A DNA stretch of 44,189 bases from Armatimonadota bacterium (GTDB taxonomy: Bacteria; Armatimonadota; UBA5829; JAUSEB01). The stretch lies in assembly GCA_030649165.1 (NCBI GenBank), contig JAUSGG010000151.1, positions 1 to 44,189 on the forward strand. Direction: 5' to 3'. Of the stretch, positions 38,061-42,291 are shown piece after piece. How positions within the stretch are numbered: the stretch's first letter is position 1; each line of letters starts with the position of its first letter. Below the pieces are notes generated by a model. It was not told the origin of the DNA, did not search any database, and was given only the letters and a program-made list of their open reading frames with translations. The translations under genes and the position numbers were made by a program.

Positions 38061-39545
38061 CTAGCTCAACGCCTTCGAGCAAAGGATCTCCCTCACAACT
38101 TCCCTGTCGTCGAAATGGATCGTTTTATCCGCGAATATCTGGTAGTCCTCGTGTCCCTTTCCGGCTACCAATACCACGTCGCCGGAGCCCGCCATATCGA
38201 GCGCCATCCTGATGGCGTCGCGCCTGCTGGCTTCGACGCTCACCCGGCCGCGCCGCCCGCCGTCTACACCCGCCAGGATTTCCCCGATAATCGCATCCGG
38301 GTCCTCTTTGCGGGGATTGTCCGACGTGACGACACACATGTCCGCCAACTCGGAGGCGATGCGCCCCATCATGGGCCGCTTTCCCCTGTCACGATTGCCG
38401 CCGCAGCCGAAGACGACTATCAGCCGCCCGTCCGTCAGGTCCCTAGCCGCTATCAACACGTTCTCCAGGGCATCGGGCGCGTGAGCGTAATCGACGAGTA
38501 CGGCGAAGTCCTGGCCGCACTCGATCGATTCGAACCTTCCCGCGACGTTCTCGGCCGACGCCAGGCCCGCCGCGATCCGCGAAAGACCCAGCCCCTGCGA
38601 AAGGGCCGCTCCAGCCGCCGCCAGCGAGTTATAGACGTTGAACAGACCGCCCAGTCTCAGCCCCACTTCGACCCGCTCCCCCCGGTATGTCAGGAGGTAC
38701 GAAACGCCTTTGGCCGTCGCCCTTATGTCCGAAGCGGTGACATCCGCGGGCGCCTTGACACCGAACGTGATGACCCGCCCATTTGCCGCCGCGACGACCT
38801 TGGATGAGACCGGGTCGTCCAGGTTTACGACAGCGGTGAACTCCTTGCCGGAGGCCGCCGCGCAATCCTTGAAGAGAAGTAGCTTCGCGTCCAGATACTC
38901 TTCCATAGTGGAGTGATAGTCGAGGTGGTCGCGGGTCAGATTGGTGAATATGCCGCAGTCGAACTCGCAGCCGGCGACGCGGCCCTGCGCGAGGCCATGA
39001 GACGAGACCTCCATCGCCACCAGTTGCGCTTGGCTCGCCGCCATCCGCGCCAGCAGCGCCTGAAGGTCGACGGATTCAGGAGTCGTGTGCTCGCTGTCAA
39101 TGACTTCGTCCCCGACGCGGCTTCCGATCGTGCCGATGACGCCGGTCTTCCACCCGGCGGAACGGAAAATCGACGCGATCAGGTACGTGGTCGTGGTCTT
39201 GCCTTTGGTGCCGGTGACGCCGATCAGTTTGAGATTTCGAGAGGGGTAATCGTAGAACTTCGCCGCGACCGCGGCCATCGCCACCCGGGAGTCGTCCACT
39301 ACCGCCACGCTCACATCGTCCAGCGGGATTCCGGGCAGCTCTCGCTCGGCGATTATCGCCACCGCTCCGTTCTTCACCGCCGCGCCCGCGAACTGGTGAC
39401 CGTCGAAAGTCTCTCCCCCCACAGCGACAAAAAGCGACCCAGCGGTCGCCCGTCGCGAATCGTACACGATGCTCTCGACGTTTACATCCGGCCTGCCCAG
39501 CGTTCTTGCGCCCGGCAGCTCACGGACCAGATTGCTAAAAAACAT
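38061..39545 (-). CDS. murE: UDP-MurNAc-dipeptide--meso-diaminopimelate ligase
   Basis: It adds the third stem-peptide residue (494 aa). The ATP loop is VTGTKGKTTTTYL (about residues 110-122). The specificity motif reads DNPRKEDP (409-416); DNPR is the meso-diaminopimelate form, whereas lysine-adding enzymes differ here. So the wall is of the direct DAP type. Other blocks are VYDSRRATAGSLFVA, NLTRDHLDYH and DYAHAPDAL. The gene has its own predicted extended -10 promoter and is separated from ftsI by 576 bp. Confidence 0.98.
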   Translation of the reverse strand: MFFSNLVRELPGARTLGRPDVNVESIVYDSRRATAGSLFVAVGGETFDGHQFAGAAVKNGAVAIIAERELPGIPLDDVSVAVVDDSRVAMAAVAAKFYDYPSRNLKLIGVTGTKGKTTTTYLIASIFRSAGWKTGVIGTIGSRVGDEVIDSEHTTPESVDLQALLARMAASQAQLVAMEVSSHGLAQGRVAGCEFDCGIFTNLTRDHLDYHSTMEEYLDAKLLLFKDCAAASGKEFTAVVNLDDPVSSKVVAAANGRVITFGVKAPADVTASDIRATAKGVSYLLTYRGERVEVGLRLGGLFNVYNSLAAAGAALSQGLGLSRIAAGLASAENVAGRFESIECGQDFAVLVDYAHAPDALENVLIAARDLTDGRLIVVFGCGGNRDRGKRPMMGRIASELADMCVVTSDNPRKEDPDAIIGEILAGVDGGRRGRVSVEASRRDAIRMALDMAGSGDVVLVAGKGHEDYQIFADKTIHFDDREVVREILCSKALS

Positions 39546-39573: not shown

Positions 39574-39582
39574 ATTATAACA
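39574..39582 (-). promoter_or_regulatory. Extended -10 promoter of murE
   Basis: TGTTATAAT is a perfect extended -10 (TGnTATAAT). Initiation near 39567 leaves a leader of about 22 nt before the ATG. The -35 region (TACGCA at 17 bp) is poor, as is common with extended -10 promoters. Confidence 0.55.
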
Positions 39583-39655
39583 CGGGTGATGGGTGTTGCG
39601 TACTGGCGCCATCCTCCATCACCCGACACCCGTCACCCAACACCCGATAAAAGAA

Positions 39656-39715
39656 GGGGTCGTGCGACGCAGAAGAGGACTCGCCCAAGTTTCCCTGTCC
39701 GGCCAACACGACCCC
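39656..39715. ncRNA. Structured repeat element, copy 1
   Basis: A 9-bp closing stem GGGGTCGTG (39656-39664) with CACGACCCC (39707-39715) encloses the invariant core, read on the minus strand as GGGAAACTTGGGCGAGTCC. The core folds as ACT/AGT and AGG/CCT pairs around a TGGGCG loop with a GAA bulge. The strand of action is not established; minus would match the dcw transcript. Confidence 0.55.
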
Positions 39716-39717
39716 AA

Positions 39718-39843
39718 GCTGATTGCCCGCCTCAAACAACAAAGCGGGTCAGCGACGGCCCCCCGACTTATCGGGGCGGCCGCTCCCGGCGAATATTCCC
39801 GCCGGAATTCCGACCACACGGAATTAGCTGGGACCGACAGGCT
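39718..39843. other. Hairpin-rich spacer between element copies 1 and 2
   Basis: Three further hairpins are seen: GCTGA..CCCGC with GCGGG..TCAGC (39718-39755), CCCCGA-CTTA-TCGGGG (39761-39776), and AATTCCG-ACCACA-CGGAATT (39807-39826). No open frame here looks real. Confidence 0.5.
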
Positions 39844-39890
39844 AGAAAAGGACTCGCCCAAGTTTCCCTCTCCCGCCGGAGCCGGTCCCA
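39829..39890. ncRNA. Structured repeat element, copy 2
   Basis: The same core is enclosed by TGGGACCG (39829-39836) and CGGTCCCA (39883-39890). Two bases (AG) next to the inner stem are missing relative to copies 1 and 3. Confidence 0.55.
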
Positions 39891-39917
39891 AACCCAAGAA
39901 ACTAATTGGTATGCTTA

Positions 39918-39990
39918 ACCTCCCCCTAACCGCCTCCCAAAGGGAGGGGGGATTTGCTCCCTCTCCTTTTAGGAGAGGGTGGGGTGAGGT
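39918..39990. repeat. CCTCCCCC palindromes (copy 8, doubled)
   Basis: Two adjoining hairpins (CGCCTCCCAAAGGGAGGGGG and CTCTCCTTTTAGGAGAG) followed by GGGTGGGGTGAGG lie between element copies 2 and 3. They belong to the window-wide repeat family. Confidence 0.7.
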
Positions 39991-40015
39991 CAAATACCTC
40001 AACTCACGATCTAGC

Positions 40016-40079
40016 TGGGACCGGCCAAGCTAGAAAAGAGGACTCGCCCAAGTTTCCCTCTCCCGCCGCACCGGTCCCA
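40016..40079. ncRNA. Structured repeat element, copy 3
   Basis: The core is enclosed by the 9-bp stem TGGGACCGG (40016-40024) and CCGGTCCCA (40071-40079). It ends 42 bp before the ftsI stop, so on the minus strand it would sit directly in the ftsI 3-prime untranslated region. Confidence 0.55.
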
Positions 40080-40121: not shown

Positions 40122-41912
40122 CTACGCCGAGACGGTCTTCCTCGCGACTCGTGTGTTAGGCTGCGTCGGGACCTGGTCCCGCGGAGTGCGCAGATACCAC
40201 ATGGCTTTCGTCGCAATGTCTTTGAACGCCGGGGCCGCGACCGTCGCGCCCCAGTGCGTGCCTTTCGGTTCGTCCACCATGACCAGGATCACCAGCCTCG
40301 GATTAGACGCGGGCAGGAAGCCTATGAAAGAGGCTACGTACTTCCCCGGCTCATAACCTCGCCCGTCCTTGCGTACCTTCTGAGCGCTTCCTGTCTTGCC
40401 GCCTATTGAATAGCCTTCAACCTGCGCCGATTTGCCGGTTCCGTCCGCCACGCAGGCGACCAAAGCCCTCTTGACCTGCGCCGCGGTCGAATCTGACACC
40501 ACCCGCCGCACCATCTTCGGAGAAAACTCGCGGCAGACCGATCCATCCTTGCTTCGTAGCTCTCTGATGATCATAGGCCGCATCATAACGCCGCCGTTCG
40601 CGATCACCGAATAGGCACAGGTTATCTGCAGCGGCGTTATCGCAATCCCCTGGCCGAATGCGACGTTCGCGCACTTGATCGTCGGCCATGCCGAGGGCCG
40701 GTCCAACCGACCGGTCACTTCTCCGGGCAGTCCGGAGCGCGGCTTCGACAGCAGTCCGAACGCCTTCTCGTATTTGTAAAGCCGGTCCGCTCTCAGTTTC
40801 ATCCCCAGTTCGCTGGCGCCGATGTTACAGGAATACTGGATCATCTTGGTCAGATCGACCGCGGCGTGCCCGTTGTTGAATGGGTGATGCAAGACGCACC
40901 GAACCCTCCGCCTGCCGACCGCAATGCTGCCGGAACAGTGGGCGAAAATCGAGTGTGAGTCGATTATCCCCTCCTCCAACGCTGCCGCCGCGGTGATCGT
41001 CTTGAGGGTGGAGCCGGGCTCATAGAGGTCCGTTACCGCCCTGTTGCGCCACTGGTCCGCGGAACTGCCCGTCAGGCCGTTCGAGTTGAACGTCGGCATA
41101 TTCGCCATTGCCAGAATCTCGCCGGTCTCAGGGTCCATGACGATGGCGCAGGCGCCCAGGGCCTTGCTGGCTTCGAATGTCTTCCTCAACGCTTCCTCAG
41201 CCACGTGCTGGATGTATGCATCGATGGTCAGGACCACATCCAGACCGTCGTGCGCCTTCACAGTCTTCCGCCTCGTCTCGGGAATGATCCGTCCGTCCTT
41301 GTCCACCTCCGCGGCGACAAATCCGTTCGCGCCCTTCAGGTATCGGTCAGCGACCTTCTCCACCCCTTGGCGGCCTTTGCCGTCGACGTCCGTGAAACCC
41401 ACGACCTGCGCCGCAACGCTTGAAGGCGTCAGGCTGCCGCTCGGGTCTACGCCCGAGGGGTAGATACGCTTCTGCTCCTTGGTCGCGTAGACTCCCGGCA
41501 ACTCGGCGTCGCAGATCTTCTCGCCTATGTCGTCGCTCGCGCCGCGTTTCAGCCAAACGAAACTCTTGTCAACCGCGAGCTTCTGAGCCAGAGTGTCCTG
41601 CTCGCATCCCAGGAGGCTCGCGAGATGGAAACTCACCTGGTCGATGTTCCTGACCGACCGCGGGTGAGCGTAGACTGATGACCCTCTGAGGTTCATCGCC
41701 AGCTCGCGGCCGACACGGTCGTAGATCACTCCGCGCTGAGCCACGATATCGAGCCTGCGATTTCGGATTTCCTTGCCAAATGCTTCGTAACGGTCGGCCT
41801 TCCAATACTGGACGTAAGTGAGCCGCAGCGCGACCAGCGCGTATGCCGCCACGAACAGGAAGAACAGAATCTCAGATCGCCTTCGAACTACCGTCCGATA
41901 TGTAAGGCGCAC
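40122..41912 (-). CDS. ftsI: Septal penicillin-binding protein (FtsI/PBP2-type transpeptidase)
   Basis: This class B penicillin-binding protein (596 aa) cross-links septal peptidoglycan with FtsW. It has a short basic cytoplasmic N-terminus, one membrane segment (about residues 14-30), a dimerisation/pedestal domain (RRGVIYDRVGREL-like segment AQRGVIYDRVGRELA), then the transpeptidase domain. Active-site motifs are S301-T-L-K304, S361-C-N363 and K506-T-G508. No PASTA repeat follows. The GTG start at 41912 has GAGG 7 bp upstream and lies 10 bp after the ftsL stop; the open frame runs further upstream through ftsL and was trimmed. Confidence 0.97.
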   Translation of the reverse strand: MRLTYRTVVRRRSEILFFLFVAAYALVALRLTYVQYWKADRYEAFGKEIRNRRLDIVAQRGVIYDRVGRELAMNLRGSSVYAHPRSVRNIDQVSFHLASLLGCEQDTLAQKLAVDKSFVWLKRGASDDIGEKICDAELPGVYATKEQKRIYPSGVDPSGSLTPSSVAAQVVGFTDVDGKGRQGVEKVADRYLKGANGFVAAEVDKDGRIIPETRRKTVKAHDGLDVVLTIDAYIQHVAEEALRKTFEASKALGACAIVMDPETGEILAMANMPTFNSNGLTGSSADQWRNRAVTDLYEPGSTLKTITAAAALEEGIIDSHSIFAHCSGSIAVGRRRVRCVLHHPFNNGHAAVDLTKMIQYSCNIGASELGMKLRADRLYKYEKAFGLLSKPRSGLPGEVTGRLDRPSAWPTIKCANVAFGQGIAITPLQITCAYSVIANGGVMMRPMIIRELRSKDGSVCREFSPKMVRRVVSDSTAAQVKRALVACVADGTGKSAQVEGYSIGGKTGSAQKVRKDGRGYEPGKYVASFIGFLPASNPRLVILVMVDEPKGTHWGATVAAPAFKDIATKAMWYLRTPRDQVPTQPNTRVARKTVSA

Positions 41913-41922
41913 GGTTCGACCT

Positions 41923-42291
41923 CTAATCCTCTCCGGCTTCCGCCACGACCATCGTCTGGCTGCCCGGCTCAAGATAATCAACCTGACTGCAAACCTGCAT
42001 TCCCGACTCCATCGCAACCTGTCCGAGCCGCTCCGGGCTGGACAGCGCCTGGATATCCGCGCGCAGCCGAACGTTTTGCACTCGGGCCTCTCTCAACTGC
42101 GCGACAAGATGCGCTCGGTAGTAGCCGTTCTTGGTGACTTTGGCGTAGACGCCGATGTAGGACAGCATAACGGCCAGGACCGTCAACGTCACGACCACTG
42201 CCAGGCTCATTCTGTCTCTGGCGATCCGACGCGGGATTGACCGCAATATACCTTTGCTTTGACCCTTTTCTCTTCGACCGCGCTTTTGCAC
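41923..42291 (-). CDS. ftsL: Cell division protein FtsL
   Basis: A small bitopic protein (122 aa) that pairs with FtsQ and a DivIC/FtsB-like partner and activates FtsW/FtsI. It has a basic cytoplasmic N-terminus, one membrane segment (about residues 29-48, SLAVVVTLTVLAVMLSYIGV), a coiled coil (HLVAQLREARVQNVRLRADI), and the PERLGQVAMESGM box seen in FtsL proteins. AGGAGG lies 5 bp before the GTG start and contains the rsmH stop codon. Confidence 0.9.
   Translation of the reverse strand: MQKRGRREKGQSKGILRSIPRRIARDRMSLAVVVTLTVLAVMLSYIGVYAKVTKNGYYRAHLVAQLREARVQNVRLRADIQALSSPERLGQVAMESGMQVCSQVDYLEPGSQTMVVAEAGED

Follow-up and report, generated by a model that had tools for sequence, protein, structure and literature searches.

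Three copies of an element between ftsI and murE

The window analysed here is a 44,189-nucleotide stretch of an Armatimonadota genome (GenBank assembly GCA_030649165.1, contig JAUSGG010000151.1, positions 1 to 44,189). Its dcw genes are encoded on the minus strand, and the following features lie between and around ftsI and murE, given here in the direction of transcription.

40122..42017, minus strand: ftsI, PBP transpeptidase (Pfam Transpeptidase, PBP_dimer), the upstream gene; its stop codon lies about 40 nt before copy 3
40016..40079, minus strand: copy 3 (ftsI-proximal); closing stem P1 TGGGACCGG/CCGGTCCCA; loop UGGGCGA at 40044-40050; no U-run
39960..39989, no strand assigned: repeat hairpin CCTCTCCTTTTAGGAGAGGGTGGGGTGAGG between copies 2 and 3, outside the motif; three copies in the genome at up to three mismatches
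39829..39890, minus strand: copy 2; P1 TGGGACCG/CGGTCCCA; loop UGGGCGA at 39854-39860; no U-run
39656..39715, minus strand: copy 1 (murE-proximal), about 60 nt, of terminator form; P1 39656-39664/39707-39715; loop UGGGCGA at 39681-39687; followed by TTCTTTTAT on the sense strand
39647..39655, minus strand: U-run (TTCTTTTAT) immediately 3' of copy 1, which gives this copy an intrinsic-terminator-like hairpin
39574..39579, minus strand: TATAAT, the -10 box of a presumed murE promoter; each of the three copies lies upstream of it
38061..39545, minus strand: murE, UDP-MurNAc-tripeptide synthetase (Pfam Mur_ligase_M, Mur_ligase_C, Mur_ligase), the next downstream gene

The original prediction of three copies between ftsI and murE was borne out, each copy being about 60 nt long. 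Their core GGACTCGCCCAAGTTTCCCT occurs exactly at 39677, 39850, and 40040 of the plus strand (GGGAAACTTGGGCGAGTCC on the minus strand), compared with zero copies expected from 100 dinucleotide shuffles, and a repeat finder returned the same three-copy family with spacings of 173 and 190. The closing stems read as predicted, i.e., GGGGTCGTG/CACGACCCC in copy 1 and TGGGACCG(G)/(C)CGGTCCCA in copies 2 and 3, and thus differ between copies while remaining paired. On the minus strand, each copy was predicted by RNA folding to form a long hairpin with the closing stem present in all three (z = -0.8, -2.4, and -3.7 versus dinucleotide shuffles), and the elements folded better there than on the plus strand. 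The position upstream of a murE promoter agrees with the TATAAT at 39574-39579. Of the extra hairpins that had been placed between copies 1 and 2, the one at 39960-39989 is present, but it lies between copies 2 and 3. A G-rich repeat similar to this dispersed sequence is also found near the array of another class genome (G001, locus L009).

Distribution and conserved structure

An initial core search of 61 genomes detected the element in four relatives, always between ftsI and murE. A covariance model, built from ten copies and refined in two successive rounds, then raised the count to 26 copies, distributed over 18 of the 28 genomes from the Armatimonadota class that contains the analysed genome, every one of them at this junction; no match to the model was obtained elsewhere in the class genomes, so that each carrier has a single locus. 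In a nineteenth genome (G011), the array is degenerate and similarly laid out. No copy was found by the model in the other 263 of the 291 Armatimonadota genomes, in phylum-wide scans that scored only the best first-look candidates per genome and that very diverged copies could escape. The motif is spread over four families of the class, with one to three hairpins sharing the same loop per array; family f4 includes genomes with a single copy, and in family f2 the array comprises a larger set of hairpins. In class genomes that lack the element, ftsI abuts murE or no hairpin terminator is visible between the two genes.

Among the matches listed for public genomes, the core pattern was present at 43 loci, 5 of which belong to Armatimonadota. 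The remaining loci scored at most 32 bits, mostly 16 to 25, versus at least 49.7 for true copies. They were rejected as members, since 16 to 25 bits is what the preselected core alone yields and the stems are absent; core occurrences outside the phylum are at chance level. A transposon end, REP sequence, or other dispersed repeat was likewise rejected: at up to two mismatches, the core matches in the whole 5.48-Mb genome are exactly the three copies at this one locus, and every other genome also has one locus.

Each copy consists of P1, an asymmetric internal loop, a second stem (P2), a 2-nt bulge, and an apical loop with the motif UGGGCRA. All 23 tabulated copies share the loop UGGGCGA, whereas P1 and P2 differ in sequence yet stay paired; among a few further copies from genus g3, the loop reads UGGGCAA or, in the terminator copy, the motif has been lost. 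The ends of P1 are invariant (GG/CC) and the remainder of this stem varies. The bulge had been predicted as a fixed GAA. Across relatives, it is better read as two nucleotides (AW) below CUU/GAG, and the R-Y pair beneath it covaries (A-U in 10, G-C in 8, and G-U in 3 cases).

The covariation expected of a structured RNA is strong among the relatives. In an alignment of 24 copies, 16 pairs hold in 88% of cells and 11 pairs have changed on both sides, and both-side changes affect 48 cells compared with 14 expected, a count that leans towards the structure because the alignment had been adjusted to a previous form of it. The covariation score was 0.41 versus 0.23 and exceeded all 500 shuffles and all slid versions. 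An R-scape-like test, in which Fitch substitutions were reshuffled on a FastTree phylogeny and evaluated with the G statistic and APC, lacked power, given 24 sequences in which P1 was imperfectly aligned; none of the 16 pairs reached an E value of <0.05 over all pairs, and structure pairs made up three of the top five, including the first. After this phylogeny-aware test had failed, an arm-swap test independent of any stem alignment was chosen. The copies' own arms paired better than shuffled arms, and none of 2,000 permutations was as good, for P1 (taken without the invariant GGG/CCC) as well as for P2; the result also holds in a reduced set of 15.

The element had been proposed to be a structured RNA, or a structured single-stranded DNA substrate, of an unrecognised family, and the covariation in relatives and the lack of an Rfam match agree with this proposal. 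RNA of the dcw-sense strand is favoured over DNA: G-U pairs occur on this strand in both stems and below the bulge, and the RNA read together with the dcw genes is likely the functional one because these pairs become A-C mismatches on the other strand. Overall, stems that change in step around a fixed loop indicate that the element is very probably a real regulatory RNA.

Transcript boundaries at the junction

The last copy before murE is followed by 5 to 8 T residues within nine positions, compared with 2 to 5 for the earlier copies, and has the form of an intrinsic terminator. A simple terminator scan did not list it because the scan is limited to loops of up to 8 nt. In most class genomes, a TATAAT lies within about 100 nt upstream of murE and downstream of the elements, whereby all promoter calls are consensus matches and not measured starts. 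In several genomes, e.g., at the family f2 loci L031, L032, L033, and others, this box is located at -13 of the murE ATG, which suggests an almost leaderless mRNA. No consistent sigma70 consensus promoter precedes the first copy in the class genomes.

Family f3 has the stop codon of ftsI inside the first copy (copy a), in both of its genomes. In genome G004, a peptidase-like gene (L017, 1816-3063) separates the array from murE and the array still adjoins ftsI. The mraZ gene of the window is preceded by TTGACA-17-TATAGT, as read directly from the sequence. Taken together, the U-run rule, the murE promoter, the f3 stop codon, the G004 layout, and the mraZ promoter indicate that the elements most likely form the 3' end of an mraZ-rsmH-ftsL-ftsI transcript and not a murE leader. 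This assignment to the ftsI transcript and the terminator form of the murE-proximal copy both go beyond the original prediction. UGGGC has been lost from the terminator copies of G002 and G004 and kept in their upstream copies; the loop is thus not always required in the terminator copy itself. In genus g3 (loci L026 [minus strand], L016, L017, and L018), an additional hairpin CTCCTCG..TCTGGGCGA..CGAGGAG and a linker hairpin with the loop GCCGA accompany the element, and TGTTTCGGGAATT..TCCCGAAAC hairpin repeats are located near the array in L017 and L018.

Possible functions and relation to known RNAs

With respect to novelty, the dcw cluster is among the most conserved bacterial gene clusters, and neither Rfam nor the open-access papers searched yielded a structured RNA for the junction of ftsI and murE. 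Rfam 15 gave no match at gathering score in the window or in 10 related loci, and only chance-level matches far below gathering appeared at E values of up to 10; the motif itself was not found in any report in the open-access literature. The element is therefore a candidate for a new structured-RNA family. The kind of element is known, i.e., a cis-acting RNA at a transcription-unit boundary, and, as far as could be found, the sequence, the locus, and the repeated loops ending in a terminator are new. A structured RNA tied to the dcw cluster is also known from Actinomycetales, the mraW motif (RF01746; PMC2864571), but identity with it was rejected on the grounds of the missing Rfam match, the different phylum, and the location between ftsI and murE. 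The T-box bulge UGGNACCGCG is similar to certain P1 strands (GGGACCGCG); a T-box leader was rejected, since P1 is a continuous helix here, the resemblance is lost in other copies, and no T-box model matched.

The explanation that we favour, albeit tentatively, is an array of protein-binding sites in the 3' untranslated region (UTR) that tunes either termination into murE or the lifetime of the ftsI mRNA. In this view, the first dcw transcript, which starts at mraZ, would carry the three copies at its 3' end as a cis-encoded structured RNA, the murE-proximal copy would act as its intrinsic terminator, and murE would begin a new transcript from its own promoter. The repeated loops may be bound by a factor acting in trans, which is most likely an RNA-binding protein, and its occupancy might set the readthrough into murE-murF or the stability of the ftsI mRNA end. 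This proposal builds on what the sequence shows, namely, a covarying structure, its strand and location, the U-run rule, and a -10 box of murE's own. The earlier copies, which have no U-run, look like binding sites rather than separate switches. An array of sites for a trans-acting factor fits better than independent riboswitches because the nonterminating copies share the loop and the terminators of two genomes have lost it, whereas each riboswitch copy would need its own expression platform. The invariance of the loop across four families suggests that UGGGCRA is recognised by a factor through which septal wall synthesis and precursor supply are coordinated.

A trans-acting small RNA, processed from the ftsI 3' UTR or transcribed from its own promoter, is a possible alternative of lower probability and would act as a multihairpin sponge or antisense RNA via its UGGGCRA loops, ending at the terminator copy. 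One to three same-loop hairpins that end in an intrinsic-terminator-like hairpin at one locus per genome are compatible with it, as is the larger hairpin set of family f2. The missing consistent promoter ahead of the first copy and the overlap of that copy with the ftsI stop codon in family f3 argue against it, and in the single-copy genomes of family f4, the sponge would consist of one hairpin. Protein-titrating RNAs of the CsrB/RsmZ type likewise combine several hairpins that share one loop motif (GGA) and end in a terminator. The present element resembles them in its same-loop hairpins and terminator form, but it has one to three copies only, and the loop is not GGA (UGGGCGA in 23 of 23 tabulated copies). 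CsrA is encoded in 24 of the 28 class genomes, including 5 without the element. Co-occurrence across the class genomes was not discriminating for any of the candidate partners CsrA, Hfq, and MraZ, because none of these families tracks the presence of the element. The loop complement UCGCCCA was also considered as an antisense target (16S rRNA 1400 region and tRNA 3' ends) and dropped for lack of supporting evidence.

A small-molecule riboswitch with an aptamer inside the terminator hairpin, whose ligand might be a wall precursor, ranks below the small RNA and is rather unlikely. Features of the kind that led to the HMP-PP (thiS motif) riboswitch (PMC6478431) are present here: the loop of a terminator is abnormally conserved, the gene association is exclusive, and copies occur in tandem. 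HMP-PP also carries a conserved loop within an intrinsic terminator stem with a U-run behind it, is tightly associated with its genes, and occurs in tandem with other elements. The murE-proximal copy shows the same combination of terminator and conserved loop, except in G002 and G004. Sequence and genes differ, however, as HMP-PP is associated with thiamin precursor genes and all copies of the present element lie between ftsI and murE. Switching could be achieved if the invariant CCC(A) on the 3' side of P1 is contested by the loop UGGG and by the P1 5' strand, which likewise reads UGGG in the upstream copies, and the invariance of the P1 ends as well as the CCCA that follows in all upstream copies listed would be in line with this idea. 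In HMP-PP, ligand binding goes with a mutually exclusive fold that contains a pseudoknot, for which this alternative pairing would be a possible counterpart. The pairing comprises only 3 to 5 bp and is invariant, so it cannot show covariation. Moreover, the upstream copies lack a U-run and hence a visible expression platform, and murE is preceded by a promoter of its own, with hardly any leader in many genomes.

A broader proposal, which we regard as unlikely but slightly less so than the riboswitch, is a new regulatory RNA class. Its recognition loop, embedded in a terminator and present one to three times per 3' UTR, would sense either a cell wall signal or a dedicated protein and would link the division half of the cluster (ftsI) with the precursor half (murE onward). 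An ordinary terminator with 3'-end-protecting hairpins, whose loop is conserved for folding stability only, appears improbable. The last copy looks like a good terminator and the stems are strong, but termination does not need a 7-nt loop that is identical across four families, and the upstream nonterminating copies keep the loop as well. Even more remote is a DNA element, be it an MraZ operator, a transposon end, or a REP-like repeat. TGGG is found in the loop and at the start of P1, and MraZ is encoded by the first gene of the operon; the copies are, however, restricted to three at a single locus, and their stems covary with G-U pairs. MraZ boxes are direct TGGGN repeats with a periodicity of about 10 nt, and an operator was rejected since no such repeats are present in the elements or upstream of mraZ.

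Armatimonadota represent a phylum with little experimental biology, and the motif is small enough to be tested in vitro and with reporters. Many genomes of the class encode a second MraZ/AbrB-like protein outside the dcw cluster.
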